Positions 12,660 to 26,495 of a stretch of DNA of 48,498 bases are shown here, in pieces. How positions within the stretch are numbered: position 1 is the first letter of the stretch; every line of letters starts with the position of its first letter. A model generated the notes under the pieces. That model was not told the origin of the DNA, made no database searches, and was given only the letters and a program-made list of their open reading frames with translations. Made by a program: the position numbers and the translations under genes. This DNA comes from an uncultured Spirochaetaceae bacterium (GTDB taxonomy: Bacteria; Spirochaetota; Spirochaetia; Sphaerochaetales; Sphaerochaetaceae), in NCBI GenBank assembly GCA_944389975.1, contig CALXOH010000048.1, forward strand, positions 1-48,498. Reading direction: 5' to 3'.

Positions 12660-13183
12660 GGAAGCTCTTTCTCAAGAAGCACCAGATTCACGCCATCAAT
12701 TCCGTTGAAGACGACCGGAACCATTCCCACTTCCTTGTATCCAAGGGATGCGTACATCTTACGCGCCCTTGTATTTTTAGCGTTTGTATCGAGTCTCAGA
12801 TCTATGATCCCCGAGCCTCCGGCAAGCTCTTCGTAGAAGCGGACGAAGGATTTTCCATATCCCTTTCCGCTCTCTGACGGGTCTACGGTCAGGGTATGCA
12901 GAACGAGCACCTCGCTTTCCTTAGCACCTCTTTTCCAAGAGCCTTTTTCGTATCCGTCAGGTTGCCTGTTGTTGATGATCCCCGATGCAACCACCTTCTT
13001 CTCATCGTTTTCAAGGACGTAGAGCTCATCGCCATCAAAAGCGTTCGAAGCTGTGGCTTCTGTTGGATATACTCCCCGTTTCCAACCAATCGAGACGTTC
13101 CCTTTCTCTTCCTCGTCGAGGATCTTTTCGTAGATCCCAAAAGCCTTGGGGACATCAGACTTCACAGCTTTGCGGAAGATCAT
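12647..13183 (-). CDS. GNAT-family N-acetyltransferase
   Basis: The 178-residue protein has the GNAT fold: an N-terminal IFRKAVKSDVPKAFGIYEKI, central strand VLVLHTLTVDPSESGKGYGKSF (motif A, acetyl-CoA pyrophosphate loop), and LRLDTNAKNTRARKMYASLGYKEVG (motif B, typical of RimI-like enzymes). It would transfer an acetyl group from acetyl-CoA to an unidentified amine. Its ATG overlaps the galK stop (ATGA), so both are one transcript, though no functional link to galactose is evident. Confidence 0.86.
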   Translation of the reverse strand: MIFRKAVKSDVPKAFGIYEKILDEEEKGNVSIGWKRGVYPTEATASNAFDGDELYVLENDEKKVVASGIINNRQPDGYEKGSWKRGAKESEVLVLHTLTVDPSESGKGYGKSFVRFYEELAGGSGIIDLRLDTNAKNTRARKMYASLGYKEVGMVPVVFNGIDGVNLVLLEKELPQSV

Positions 13184-14430
13184 CAGCCGATCCTTCCCAC
13201 CGGGCGCTTACGGATCGAAATGTGCGTCGAACAACCTTCGCCGAATGCGCTCTCCATCCTCTTTATGTACTTTTTCTCCATATAGGGCGGAACGTATGCC
13301 TGTATGGTCCCTGCAAACCCGCCGCCATGAACCCTGACAGCTCCTTCCCCGGACAAGACGTCTTCGCTAAGCGCGAGTGCAATCGAGAGACCCTGGGAGT
13401 ACGGATCGGATGCGGGGAATACATTCTGAAGGTATTTGAAGGATGATGAGCCTGAGTCGTTGACGAGCATAAGGAATGTCTCTATGTCTCCATCCAGAAG
13501 CTCTTTTTTCATCATCTCGACCCTTTCGTTCTCCTTGAAGTAGTGGTATGCGCGTAGGATGGCCCTGTCGTTTCCTAGTTTTTCCCTGATTTTCCCAATC
13601 GATGACAAGAATTCTTCGTAGCTTACCTCAGACAAATATTCTTTGCCGAAGTAAGAGGCAACGCTTCGCATCTCAGGAGGAACCGATGCGTACTCGGCAG
13701 TTAGATCCGCGTGGCTTCCCTTGGTGTCTGTTATGATCATGCCGTAGCCAAGTTCATCGAAATCCACGTCGATTTTATCAATTTCCGGGTTGTCTTTATC
13801 CTTGAAGTCGATTGCAACTACGCCTCCTGTGGATGAGCATATCTGGTCAAGCAGCCCCGACGGCTTTCCGAAGTAGACGTTCTCAGCGTACTTCCCGATC
13901 TTCGATAGCTCGAGAGGGGTGAACTTGTCGCCGTTGTAGATGTAGTTGAATATCTCGGCCACGAGCACTTCAATTGCAGCGGAGCTTGAGAGCCCAGAAC
14001 CCTTGAGGACATTGGTTGTGGTATTTGCCTCCCAACCTCCGACTTCGATGCCCTTTTCGGAAAATGCATTGGCAATCCCCCTCAACAAAGAGTGGGTGGT
14101 GTTCTCTTCCTCTTTCCTCTTTCCAAGGTCGGAGATGTCGATGTCCACGACAGGAAATCCTTCGCTTTTCAAAACAACGCGCTTGTCACTTCGCTTCGTG
14201 ACAGCTCCGATCGTATCGAGGTTTATACTCCCTCCGATCGTCTTTCCGAGGTTGTGGTCGGTATGGTTTCCCGCTATCTCGGTACGCCCGGATGAGGAGA
14301 AGATCATAACATCATCGCTTTTGCCGAAAAGTTCTTCATGGTCTTTCAGCAAGGTGGAGAACCTTTCGTTCATCTTCCTTTCGTCGTACTCTTTCCCGTA
14401 TAGATCCGGATAAACATCGCTGAGAGGCAT
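13183..14430 (-). CDS. galK: galactokinase
   Basis: The 415-residue cytoplasmic GHMP kinase phosphorylates galactose at C1, the entry step of the Leloir pathway. It has the galactokinase N-terminal signature in the GRTEIAGNHTDHN variant, phosphate loop KGSGLSSSAAIEV, catalytic Asp region KPSGLLDQICSSTGG and the C-terminal GGGFAGTIQAYV. AAGGAG lies ahead of the ATG. No galT or galE is nearby. Other GHMP sugar kinases are possible, but the overall motif set fits galactokinase best. Confidence 0.88.
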   Translation of the reverse strand: MPLSDVYPDLYGKEYDERKMNERFSTLLKDHEELFGKSDDVMIFSSSGRTEIAGNHTDHNLGKTIGGSINLDTIGAVTKRSDKRVVLKSEGFPVVDIDISDLGKRKEEENTTHSLLRGIANAFSEKGIEVGGWEANTTTNVLKGSGLSSSAAIEVLVAEIFNYIYNGDKFTPLELSKIGKYAENVYFGKPSGLLDQICSSTGGVVAIDFKDKDNPEIDKIDVDFDELGYGMIITDTKGSHADLTAEYASVPPEMRSVASYFGKEYLSEVSYEEFLSSIGKIREKLGNDRAILRAYHYFKENERVEMMKKELLDGDIETFLMLVNDSGSSSFKYLQNVFPASDPYSQGLSIALALSEDVLSGEGAVRVHGGGFAGTIQAYVPPYMEKKYIKRMESAFGEGCSTHISIRKRPVGRIG

Positions 14431-14485: not shown

Positions 14486-14540
14486 AGAAGATCTGAATGC
14501 GAATGGATATTGACGTTGAAGTGGATTGGAATGATGATAG

Positions 14541-15914
14541 TTGTATGTTAACCAAGTTTTTGAGGAGAAACAAAATGGTGAAAAAAAAATCAGGATATTA
14601 CTATTCCTCCTGATAGCTCTGTCGCTGCTTGCTTGTCAGAATGAAACATCGGAAAGCAAGGAAAGTGCGTTCGTATCTTCATTCCGTCCGGATGTGTTTG
14701 TCTCCGATACCCTGTCCAAGTATCTCTCGAATGAAAAGGTAACAAATCTGACGTTCGATGCAACTACATCGCCAGTTGCCCGGGCGACAGGGGATGAAAC
14801 ATTGAGCGTTGTCGCGAATTTCACCGGGTATGAATATGATGGGAAGTACACGGTCGATGGCAAACTGAATTACACACTTCCCGTAGCAAACGGGGAAATA
14901 CAGGGCTATAGCGTTTCTTCAGATCAGAATGATGTTCCAAAGATCAAGGAAGGGGAAGCGGAAAATGAGATTCCATTCGCCGTATCGATGAGTGAAGACG
15001 AGCTTCTTCCTGCATATGGAACGGTAACGAGTGATGGTTCATCAGTTTCCGTGGAAGGTGAAGCATTCCCGCCGCTTCCGGGTAACAACGTCAGTTTCCA
15101 AATCGGTGATGAAACATTCACTCCGGATGATCTGGTGGTGGAAGAACCATATACGAAGAACATGATTGCGGAGGATCTTTACAGCATGACACTTGCCCAG
15201 GGGCCGCTTTCAAAGCTGATCATGAATAATGCAACACCTGATGAGAGTGGAAACATTTCATACACGCTCCCGGGGAAAGGTAATACTTTCTCTCAGACTG
15301 GAGGAAATTCAGGTAAGTTTACTGCAACTACGAACCTTGAGATAAAAAGCCCAACGCATTTTACGACTCAAATCGGAGATGCAACATATAGCGTCAATAC
15401 AAGTGGAACGGTCAGTCTCAACACATCCGTGTATGTCGACATGGATGCACAAAGCTCTCAAATCATATCATATTCCGGAGAGTACAACGATTTCATCGCA
15501 TCCATTATCATCACTGAAAACGGGAAGTCTACATATCTGCAGAGCAAACCACTCAATGGAACATTTGGCATGACCAGCCAGGAAATCGGGATTGGCAGTC
15601 ACACATACAAAGGTAGTGAGGTATATGATCTGAGTGCATTGAACGTTGCATCCAATTTCAATCTGTACATCTCCGAAGTCGATGAGGCAGGGGATGTAAA
15701 TTTGAACTATCCGCAGTATCAACTAACTGGAAAGCTTACGTCTGGAAACTTCAAAGGATCACTGACCATTATGAACAATCACTATCCTTTCGATATTTCC
15801 TTTGATGAAAGCACGGATGAGATAACTCGGATGACATTCGATGGAATTACATTTGATGAAGAAGCTATCAAGTACTTGAATGCGAACGCTAAGATTTACG
15901 CGGATCTGATGTAG
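14541..15914 (+). CDS. putative lipoprotein with out-of-frame A9 tract at its start
   Basis: The long open frame encodes a lipoprotein: a hydrophobic core ending LLAC (lipobox), then about 420 Ser/Thr/Asn/Gly-rich residues rich in predicted beta strands, with no family I recognise. The only in-frame start is a TTG at 14541 without a ribosome site, and it lies at or before the start point predicted from TTGACG at 14510. An ATG with a good GAGGAG site lies at 14575, but in that frame the run of nine A residues (14581-14589) leads to a stop after 12 codons. One extra A would join this ATG to the lipoprotein frame and give a perfect lysine-rich signal peptide. The gene is thus phase-variable, slippage-dependent, or carries a sequencing error. 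An imperfect terminator follows. Confidence 0.7.
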   Translation: MYVNQVFEEKQNGEKKIRILLFLLIALSLLACQNETSESKESAFVSSFRPDVFVSDTLSKYLSNEKVTNLTFDATTSPVARATGDETLSVVANFTGYEYDGKYTVDGKLNYTLPVANGEIQGYSVSSDQNDVPKIKEGEAENEIPFAVSMSEDELLPAYGTVTSDGSSVSVEGEAFPPLPGNNVSFQIGDETFTPDDLVVEEPYTKNMIAEDLYSMTLAQGPLSKLIMNNATPDESGNISYTLPGKGNTFSQTGGNSGKFTATTNLEIKSPTHFTTQIGDATYSVNTSGTVSLNTSVYVDMDAQSSQIISYSGEYNDFIASIIITENGKSTYLQSKPLNGTFGMTSQEIGIGSHTYKGSEVYDLSALNVASNFNLYISEVDEAGDVNLNYPQYQLTGKLTSGNFKGSLTIMNNHYPFDISFDESTDEITRMTFDGITFDEEAIKYLNANAKIYADLM

Positions 15915-15970: not shown

Positions 15971-16223
15971 TTTGATCAAAATTATTCCATTGAATGCATT
16001 ATCTTTCTTGTAGAAAAAAAATTAGGATGTGCTCAGCTGGGAACAGCAGACGATGCTATTCTGTTGACGACGGTCAGCAGAAACGGTAGTACGACAGGGG
16101 TTTTTTGTGAATGAGTGCAATTGGATTGCAACTACGTCTGTAAAAAATATAGTCGACTGCCGTTCATCGATTACCTAATTCATGGGGGCTGTCGGCACTG
16201 AGAACTTGCTGGACAATAATTGA
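15971..16223. other. intergenic stretch with possible decayed reading frame
   Basis: No intact gene is visible. A palindrome, TTTGATCAAA, lies at 15971-15980. A plus-strand frame without start codon runs from about 15971 to 16110 and reads like protein (LGTADDAILLTTVSRNGSTT) until a T6 run near 16102, after which a neighbouring frame continues plausibly to about 16177. This looks like a decayed fragment, but no family is recognised. Confidence 0.3.
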
Positions 16224-17588
16224 TCACTTAGGGCCTCTTTCCTTCATTATCCTTGAGAAAACAACCTTTATAACTTTAAACTTCTCCGCGCTGTCGATCG
16301 CTTTTGATATCTCTCCAATATTCCAATCCCTGAGCTTCCGCATTTTCAAGTACAAGGAAAGGGAACGTTTCGTATGGAGAAACGGAATTCTTACCGCTTG
16401 TGTGATCTCGGCCCAGCCTCTGCCTCTCTCATCTTCATTCAGGCACTTCGAGCAGCCAAGACAGCCACCTGTTGATACGTTTTCTCCCATGAGGGATAAA
16501 AGCGAGTTCCGGATGCACTCCTTTGACGTAAATACACTCAATAGTTTCCCTTTCTCCCCGGGGGCTATGAGTATATATGAATCCATACGCTTTCTGTCCC
16601 TTCCTCCTCTTCCCGATTCCTGCAAAAACGAAAGTGCGTCATCGGGTACGCTGTAGTGTATTACAGTGCGTATGTTCTTTTTATCAACGCCCATTCCGTA
16701 TGCGGATGTTGCAACCATCACGGCGTCACCGGAAGCGTAAAACCCACTCTCGATCCTTTTCTTCTCATCTTTATCAAGACCGGCATGGTAGTGGTATGTC
16801 CTGAATCTGTTTGACAGCTTCATCGAAAGTTCTCTGGTCTGGCTTCTATAGCGGGTGAATATGAGGGCGGGACGGCTTTCTGGAGGGTTGAGTATGTTTA
16901 CGATATCCATCAGTTTCGAAAGTGAATAAATTGCGTGATAGTGGATGTTCTCCCTGTCCGATGACAAGCGGAGTACAACCGGAGAACGGTCTTTGTATAT
17001 CGTTTCCCTCAGCCTTGTTTCAATCCGCTCGTCGATCGTGGCGCTGAATGAAAGCCGTTGATGAGGTTTTATCTCATCGAGCACAAGTGATAAGTTCTCG
17101 TAGCTTTTCCTGAAGGTCTCTCCCCAGGTGACTATGGTATGTGCCTCGTCAAGGACGAACAACTCCGTCTTTTCCCTGAAGATCAGTGTCTCCTCCCGAA
17201 GGAACATGTACCAAAGACTCTCCATGTTTGTAATGAGTATATGGCTTTTGAAACTTTTGAGGTTTTCAATCGCTTTTGATCTCTCATCTTTTTCCATTCC
17301 ACCGCGGATCAAAGTGGATTCGACTTCAAGCTCGTCAAAACGCCTCTTCTGGTCATTCATAAGCGAAAGCAGGGGATAGAGAAGTATCGTATACCTGTCC
17401 TTTTTAAGAAGAGCAGGGAGCATGAAGCATAAACTCTTGCCCGCTCCAGTCGGAAATATAGTTATCGAGTTCTTCTCATCGCCATCGTCTTCTACATCGT
17501 CCATTATTCGTTTTACTACAAGCTCCTGGAACGGCATCATGTATGGTATTTTGAAAACTTCCTTCAACAAGCGTTCTGGTTCTTCCAT
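16224..17588 (-). CDS. RecQ-family ATP-dependent DNA helicase (short form)
   Basis: The 454-residue superfamily 2 helicase carries Walker A PTGAGKS (46-52), DEAH (147-150), motif III FSAT (181-184), motif V ATSAYGMGVDK and motif VI QESGRGGRDR, the set typical of RecQ. A four-Cys zinc-binding module follows (KECIRN, then CLGCSKC). There is no HRDC domain and the C-terminal part is short compared with E. coli RecQ (about 610 residues). It would unwind DNA 3' to 5' in repair or recombination. ATG 17588 was preferred over an upstream in-frame TTG; neither has a clear ribosome site. The gene stands alone, divergent from the next. Confidence 0.88.
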   Translation of the reverse strand: MEEPERLLKEVFKIPYMMPFQELVVKRIMDDVEDDGDEKNSITIFPTGAGKSLCFMLPALLKKDRYTILLYPLLSLMNDQKRRFDELEVESTLIRGGMEKDERSKAIENLKSFKSHILITNMESLWYMFLREETLIFREKTELFVLDEAHTIVTWGETFRKSYENLSLVLDEIKPHQRLSFSATIDERIETRLRETIYKDRSPVVLRLSSDRENIHYHAIYSLSKLMDIVNILNPPESRPALIFTRYRSQTRELSMKLSNRFRTYHYHAGLDKDEKKRIESGFYASGDAVMVATSAYGMGVDKKNIRTVIHYSVPDDALSFLQESGRGGRDRKRMDSYILIAPGEKGKLLSVFTSKECIRNSLLSLMGENVSTGGCLGCSKCLNEDERGRGWAEITQAVRIPFLHTKRSLSLYLKMRKLRDWNIGEISKAIDSAEKFKVIKVVFSRIMKERGPK

Positions 17589-17635
17589 ATCGTGTAAGTG
17601 CAGCAAGATAAAGGAATGAACAAAAGGATTGAATC

Positions 17636-24860: not shown

Positions 24861-26495
24861 ATGAAGAAACAAACTCTATTTCTATCAATAGTCTTGATAC
24901 TCTTTGCATTCACCTCCTGTGAGGTTGATACGAAGCAGCCACCGGAAGAAATGCCGGAAAAAAAAATAACCCATACCGTCACTTTCCTGGTTGATGGCAA
25001 TGAATACGTCGAAGAGATTGTCGAAAGCGGTGATACGGTCGCACCTCCTCTGGATCCGGAAATTGAAAGTTCGAGGTTCACCGGTTGGCTTTTGGGGAAC
25101 AAGCCATTTGATTTTTCTACGCCGATTGATTGTGATATCACATTGGATGCATGCTGGGATCTGGTGTTTGTTACATTTGAAATTGCCGAAGCTTTAACCC
25201 AGGCAGGTAGTGTGGCATTGTTGGAAAAGAGTATTGTCGTACATCCTGGAGTCAAACTTGATCCTTCAGGTATTCTGACCATCGGAGGAAATCCTGCCGA
25301 TGTTCTTCTCCTTTTCGATGAGGATGAAGTGATTCTGACTTTGGAAAACCATACCATTACGGAGAATACGACACTTACTATCACGGATATCAAGACAGAG
25401 GATACCTTCTATATAAGCACATTTAAAGGTCTTCATGAGTGGGTAAAATCATCTTCAGGTTGGGATGGTGGAAATTGTGTTCTTTTATCAGATATTTATA
25501 TGCCTGAACCTGAAGAAGGTGGAAGCAACTGGACGACTCCTGATGGTACATTTCATGCTACCTTTGATGGAAAAGGACACACGATAAGTGGATTAACCAT
25601 AAATAGCTCCTCCGGGGATTGTGGTTTCCTCTCCTCCAACGAAGGAATTATACAGAATATAAACTTTAAGGATGTTGCCATTACATCTAATGAAAGTTGT
25701 GGAGTGATTACAGGAGAAAACAATGGCACAATACAATCCTGTGCAGTATACATTGTTACGATATCCAACACTTACACAGACGCAACAATATACGAAGGTA
25801 TAGGGGGTATTGCAGGATATAATATTGGAACAATTACTGATTGCCACACAATTGTTGAAGGAAATATCTCTACGAGTGGCGGCTTGCCTGCTGGAGGAAT
25901 TGCAGGTAGTAATGGTACGGGAGGCACTATCTCCGATTGTTATTCAATAATACAAGATGAGGGAAAAATTCATAGTGAAAATGAGCGCTCAGGAGGCATT
26001 GCCGGTTATAGCAATGGGGTAATTATTGGATCCCATTCAATTGTAAATGGAAACATATCAAATCTTTTTCAGGCCGGGGGAATTGCCGGCGGTTCTTATG
26101 GAGAGATTAAAGGATGCTATTCCATCATTAACGGAAGTATCTCCGGAAGTGAATATGTTGGTGGAATTACAGGTCAATACGGTTCAGATACAAAGGTGAC
26201 TGCATGTTATTCGATCATAAACGGTTCTTTTGACGGCGATACTGTAAATGTCGGGGGAGTGTGTGGAGGATCTCTGTCGAGCGGGAACATCTCCGCATGC
26301 TACTGGACGGGAAATGCAGAAAAAGGTGTTGGGACTGGAGATGATTCTGGAAAGACAATAAAAGTTGAAGAGAATGGCTGGACCGACGCGATGAATGCAA
26401 TGAACACTGCTCTTGCTGGTTCTGGTTATAAGTATGAACTCAATGCTTTCGCAGATAAGGATACTATACCCTTGGTTCTTGTACATGCGGAATGA
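24861..26495 (+). CDS. surface lipoprotein with InlB-type and GLUG repeats
   Basis: The 544-residue protein has a lipoprotein signal ending FTSC. Residues about 38-95 form an InlB B-repeat-like domain (HTVTFLVDGNEYVEEIVESG then FTGWLLGNKPF). From about 295 to 465 there are five or more GLUG-type repeats, each GGIAGxxxGxIxxCxSI (for example GGIAGYNIGTITDCHT and GGIAGGSYGEIKGCYS), which form beta-helix rungs. Such proteins are usually displayed on the cell surface and used in adhesion. Its codon use is more AT-rich than the neighbours, hinting at transfer or relaxed selection. The ribosome site lies in a hairpin, and hairpin-rich non-coding segments flank the gene on both sides. Confidence 0.82.
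   Translation: MKKQTLFLSIVLILFAFTSCEVDTKQPPEEMPEKKITHTVTFLVDGNEYVEEIVESGDTVAPPLDPEIESSRFTGWLLGNKPFDFSTPIDCDITLDACWDLVFVTFEIAEALTQAGSVALLEKSIVVHPGVKLDPSGILTIGGNPADVLLLFDEDEVILTLENHTITENTTLTITDIKTEDTFYISTFKGLHEWVKSSSGWDGGNCVLLSDIYMPEPEEGGSNWTTPDGTFHATFDGKGHTISGLTINSSSGDCGFLSSNEGIIQNINFKDVAITSNESCGVITGENNGTIQSCAVYIVTISNTYTDATIYEGIGGIAGYNIGTITDCHTIVEGNISTSGGLPAGGIAGSNGTGGTISDCYSIIQDEGKIHSENERSGGIAGYSNGVIIGSHSIVNGNISNLFQAGGIAGGSYGEIKGCYSIINGSISGSEYVGGITGQYGSDTKVTACYSIINGSFDGDTVNVGGVCGGSLSSGNISACYWTGNAEKGVGTGDDSGKTIKVEENGWTDAMNAMNTALAGSGYKYELNAFADKDTIPLVLVHAE

Follow-up and report, generated by a model that had tools for sequence, protein, structure and literature searches.

The lipoprotein gene and its start

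The window, i.e. the whole stretch of 48,498 nucleotides that was analysed, is contig C48 in the draft genome (G000; 51 contigs, 1.95 Mb) of an uncultured Spirochaetaceae bacterium. Neighboured by a divergent galactokinase gene (13183-14430, minus strand) and a DEAD-box/RecQ-like helicase gene (16224-17606, minus strand), an open frame on the plus strand codes for a putative lipoprotein, 457 aa long when read from TTG 14541 to position 15914. Past its end, a plus-strand segment (15990-16220) with A8 at 16014-16021 is coding-like in pieces and has no long ORF, and is possibly a gene remnant. Another lipoprotein gene of the window (24861-26495) has an in-frame A9 at 24958-24966, about codon 33.

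The elements that should direct the start of the first lipoprotein gene follow one another on the plus strand: a Shine-Dalgarno sequence AGGAG (14563-14567) lying 7 nt 5' of ATG 14575, this ATG, a GTG codon, and a run of nine A (14581-14589) which contains, in the ATG frame, the heptamer A_AAA_AAA. As assembled, the frame opened by the ATG (14575-14613, plus strand) holds only 12 codons, MVKKKSGYYYSS, before TGA 14611-14613, exactly as an earlier note on this DNA had read it. It terminates so early because the tract would need one more base, or two fewer, to lead into the lipoprotein frame. Given A10 instead of A9, the same ATG opens 446 codons, MVKKKIRILLFLLIALSLLAC..., and not the 440 counted in the earlier note, which was right as to the joining of the frames and the quality of the signal. 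This signal, read in the shifted frame (14583-14636, plus strand; KKIRILLFLLIALSLLAC), combines a basic N-region, a hydrophobic stretch and the lipobox LLAC, whose Cys is encoded at 14634-14636; the predicted mature lipoprotein (14634-15914, plus strand) has 426 aa. Tract length thus sets the choice of frame, 12 codons with A9 and 446 aa with A10, and the lipoprotein frame is without damage across 440 codons. Its earliest ATG is codon 150, and the only strong ribosome site of the gene directs to ATG 14575. The out-of-frame layout of the lipoprotein gene is a confirmed, real observation.

One way around the break would be translation from TTG 14541, making the ATG irrelevant and giving the lipoprotein a 17-residue longer N-region. 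The frame is indeed open from this TTG, and a TTG (AAA TTG TGG) is also the sole in-frame upstream start in the relative from genome G013 discussed below. However, no clear Shine-Dalgarno sequence precedes TTG 14541, as the earlier note had seen, and the acidic extension (EEKQNGE) does not resemble the N-region of a signal. The only promoter match, a possible sigma-70-type TTGACG-17-GATGAT (14510-14538, plus strand), places the RNA start near or past this TTG, in agreement with what had been proposed; it is a weak consensus match, 9 of 12, from a scan that gave 7 promoter-like matches in the region versus 3.7 in shuffles. Moreover the relatives of the lipoprotein begin at the position of ATG 14575, 2-4 codons ahead of the hydrophobic stretch. 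We therefore regard a TTG start as quite improbable.

Relatives of the lipoprotein

Six relatives from the genus align over their length with the lipoprotein, at 31-35% identity, and the lipobox Cys is invariant in the seven sequences. The family is present in about 10 of 48 genus genomes, in several as fragments only; in one of them (G008:C8, L117:18972-19307) a broken partial second copy, with stops in the adjoining piece, lies near an intact one. The lipoprotein found no match in Pfam or NCBIfam, and its single sequence none in the named genomes, while the family alignment found there four MAG contigs, all from uncultured Spirochaetaceae or Spirochaetales. An AlphaFold2 model based on the seven sequences is mostly beta, with a mean pLDDT of 86; compared with the PDB it gave no match at E<=0.001, the best Z being 5.8 with a poor rmsd. 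Judging from the aligned sequences, the lipoprotein is a real protein.

Five of the relatives start normally in frame, with MNKISFL, MRKTALV, MKKISFL, MKKTIYL and MRKISKC—the last of them where contig C15 of G017 ends, its sequence going on in C49. In the alignment these starts correspond to MVKKKIRIL of the lipoprotein and not to the extension from TTG 14541. The sixth relative, in G013, reads ATGCACACAAAAAAATTACTTTTATTAAATACCTGA, i.e. an ATG, a run of seven A and a stop after 11 codons, and its lipoprotein frame, MHTKKITFIKYLITVLLIVFIFSSC, requires one additional A, as in G000. Judged by dnaX (72% identity), G013 is the closest of the genomes. A shared locus for the two genes found no support, as their neighbours differ; the G013 gene sits elsewhere and is thus a second member of the family in which this layout is seen, rather than a positional ortholog. 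None of the relatives has A9 at this place.

A recent loss of function, or an assembly error, in a tract that was or is A10 would require a single base, and the species is represented by a single genome. In the same direction points an SLFN_AlbA_2/HATPase_c_4 gene of G000 (L049, contig C6), split at an A9 (117596-117604) into 177 + 380 aa by the lack of one A, while its relatives are mostly in a single frame of 420-565 aa. Except for this gene and the lipoprotein gene itself, however, the coding tracts of this kind are in frame in the genome. Nine starts in G000 combine a Shine-Dalgarno sequence, an ATG and at least seven A within 12 nt and open a plausible gene—additional off-frame ATG+A7 matches, judged by eye to be internal ATGs of larger genes, were left out—and eight are in frame, the lipoprotein gene being the only one off. 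Likewise, six of the eight coding tracts of nine or more A/T keep the frame, namely those in the genes of three lipoproteins, of dnaX, of an outer-membrane-like protein and of a BspA-like surface protein; the lipoprotein gene (14581-14589) and the SLFN_AlbA_2/HATPase_c_4 gene are the two off. In G011 (C18:13171-13205, minus strand; L096) a gene for 381 aa starts with ATGAAATAC followed by a run of 16 A, in frame, so that longer runs do survive assembly in the genus. As all comparable starts but one are in frame, the assembly is unlikely to mishandle homopolymers in general, and on these grounds a systematic loss of As was set aside as unlikely. The lipoprotein gene is otherwise undamaged, and the gene of G013 shows a matching layout. 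A plain assembly error at this A9 thus appears unlikely from the sequences compared, and loss and error taken together make a doubtful explanation, with little probability.

A9 tracts in dnaX and in the genome

In G000, dnaX (L065, G000:C44:60592-62271) contains an in-frame A9 at C44:61823-61831, and the readings with A8 or A10 stop immediately. We compared this gene with its relatives (L066-L094) in the variable linker that follows the ATPase part: exactly nine A are found in 17 of the 30 genus loci, eight in two, and no A run in the remaining 11. In three further loci (G012, G030 and G061) an A9 falls inside the dnaX match by coordinates. At the 17 A9 loci, counted without weighting for kinship, both other frames stop on average 3.7 codons past the tract versus 15.5 at random linker positions, and 0 of 5000 random samples were as low. 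The position of the run varies among the loci and all three codon phases are represented, which argues against the simple inheritance of a single tract. Since the length of the tract matters and its codon phase does not, the polymerase is indicated rather than the ribosome.

This recalls dnaX of Thermus thermophilus, where, according to PMC1088944, transcriptional slippage on A9 yields about 50% of short product: the genus dnaX has likewise a sense-strand A9 with nearby stops in both other frames. Comparison of the loci thus suggests that slippage at the dnaX A9 is probably programmed and serves to make a gamma form. The literature searched contains no report of the dnaX A9 in these spirochaetes, which is no proof of absence.

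Nine-long runs are also commoner in G000 than expected. Pattern searches and sequence stretches gave 22 A8, 17 A9 and 1 A10, next to an estimated 157 A7, among the A/T runs of its 1.95 Mb; only 18 runs thus reach nine or more, and the 17 A9 stand against about 4 predicted by run-length decay. By such counts, few other genus genomes have a share of nine-long A/T runs as high.

Possible slippage, switching and frameshifting at the lipoprotein gene

We propose, with a confidence that falls slightly short of even, that the lipoprotein gene is intact and expressed through slippage of RNA polymerase on its A9. The polymerase, copying the tract just after the start codon, would add an A in a share of the transcripts; from ATG 14575, ribosomes would then translate A9 messages into a dead-end peptide of 12 residues and A10 messages into the full lipoprotein, so that the tract would serve as a dimmer for a surface protein of this class. 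From the sequences we infer that the organism's polymerase slips on A9 and does so at this gene, as well as the direction and the rate of this slippage. Two features by which slippage genes are recognised in PMC1088944 are found here: a run of nine A lies in the gene, and slippage on it would join two frames (12 codons becoming 446 aa) that are a single one in five relatives. Support for polymerase slippage comes from the dnaX A9, from the second off-frame family member in G013, from the SLFN_AlbA_2 gene that is one A short, and from the excess of A9 tracts. Certainly the A7 of G013 is below the usual slippage length and belongs to another locus, no relative has A9 at the place of the present tract, slippage in dnaX is itself a probable event, and a recent inactivating deletion would give an identical sequence picture.

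Frame restoration of this kind has precedents. In Citrobacter rodentium the tssM1 gene is put back in frame by transcriptional slippage on A11, as shown by protein, RNA and mutation (PMC4256274), and Shigella mxiE is another case of frame-restoring transcriptional slippage, as described in PMC1088944. The likeness is a gene interrupted in the DNA and an extra A or U in part of its mRNA, which in our case would be an inferred step. The lipoprotein gene differs from tssM1 by having A9 rather than A11, and by having it at the start of a lipoprotein. It also differs from Thermus thermophilus dnaX as depicted in PMC1088944: there slippage leads to a shorter product, whereas the lipoprotein gene would need slippage for its longer and only useful one, and its tract stands at the start codon.

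The main competitor is a heritable phase variation, in which replication slippage would convert A9 (off) into A10 (on) and back among the cells, the off allele having been assembled; it may coexist with transcriptional slippage, and we consider it possible, if on the whole unlikely. As in phase-variable genes, a homopolymer whose length decides the frame does stand here, near the 5' end of the coding sequence for a surface protein. A/T tracts of at least nine moreover cluster at, or just 5' of, lipoprotein genes: this is the case for 4 of 18 tracts by a strict lipobox rule, for 5 with the present gene and for 7 by eye, while among 321 genes sampled 15 satisfy the strict rule. The association of a Shine-Dalgarno sequence, ATG and A9 occurs at 14 distinct places genus-wide, some of which are no starts of genes. 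Five of the 14 belong to G000 and G013, and all five are lipoprotein genes, four in frame and one, the present gene, off. Two of these starts, MSTKKKWTL in G000 and MSKKKKWIL in G013, are apparently homologous by eye and have kept the A9. All these counts, made after the data had been seen, are suggestive only.

There is also the precedent of p78 in Mycoplasma fermentans (Theiss and Wise 1997, as described in PMC2831843 and PMC3711429), which has a 5' A7 and in which changes of tract length in the DNA were observed. Like our gene, p78 codes for a surface lipoprotein and carries at its 5' end a short poly-A in which one A sets the frame; the present case differs in that a single allele is known, the lipoprotein is unrelated and the phylum is another. 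On the other hand, the single genome of the species gives a single tract length for the lipoprotein gene, nine A are few for a tract that switches fast, and it would take a coincidence for G000 and G013 both to show the off state. Of the two mechanisms, the earlier note had preferred phase variation in the DNA to transcriptional slippage. Its account of the layout and its proposal of a slippage site are upheld, whereas its ranking tends to be reversed: in our comparative analysis the balance inclines to transcriptional slippage through the A9 of dnaX, present in G000 and in most of the relatives examined.

Runs of A also lie further 5' of lipoprotein genes in G000: an A10 (L046, G000:C2:6001-6010) and an A9 (L057, G000:C18:30407-30415) are found about 60 nt upstream of two of them, MELMKKHLLLAG... 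and MLKKITSLLCLL..., where their lengths could alter promoter spacing.

A slip of the ribosome is the last possibility: a -1 frameshift on A_AAA_AAA early in translation would produce the lipoprotein from unslipped mRNA. The heptamer lies in the ATG frame in both G000 and G013, -1 is in both the direction needed, and the A7 of G013 is better accounted for in this way than by a slip of the polymerase. Ribosomes are known to slip on A_AAA_AAA (PMC3711429) and to slide along consecutive AAA codons (PMC4363877), and the initiation Shine-Dalgarno sequence, 13 nt upstream, might be stimulatory. By contrast, folding gave no support for a stable RNA structure downstream (z -0.2 to -0.8), and in dnaX the length of nine and the indifference to codon phase indicate the polymerase, at least for that gene. 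Ribosomal frameshifting at the lipoprotein start is thus improbable.

Transcriptional slippage, which remains our preferred reading, could have a wider extension. The lineage might keep A9 tracts as slippage dimmers in dnaX and at several surface-lipoprotein starts, levels being set or scattered without any change of the DNA, and some genes—the present one and that of G013—being made only from slipped messages; in this generality the proposal is a speculative one, to which we attach a rather low probability. The elements of the case are already known: slippage on A9 (PMC1088944), restoration of a frame by slippage (PMC4256274) and a phase-variable lipoprotein with poly-A (PMC2831843). What is new is the lipoprotein gene, the dnaX A9 across these spirochaetes, and the pairing of both.

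A gene that loses its frame by one base at an A9 is readily dismissed as a pseudogene or an error. As dnaX of the genus indicates a working slippage site in A9, a surface gene that seems broken at such a tract is likely expressed; the sequences suggest that a share of the messages probably still yields the lipoprotein, or that the length of the tract switches it. The A9 of this gene thus offers, in an uncultured spirochaete, a simple test of variation at the RNA level versus switching at the DNA level.
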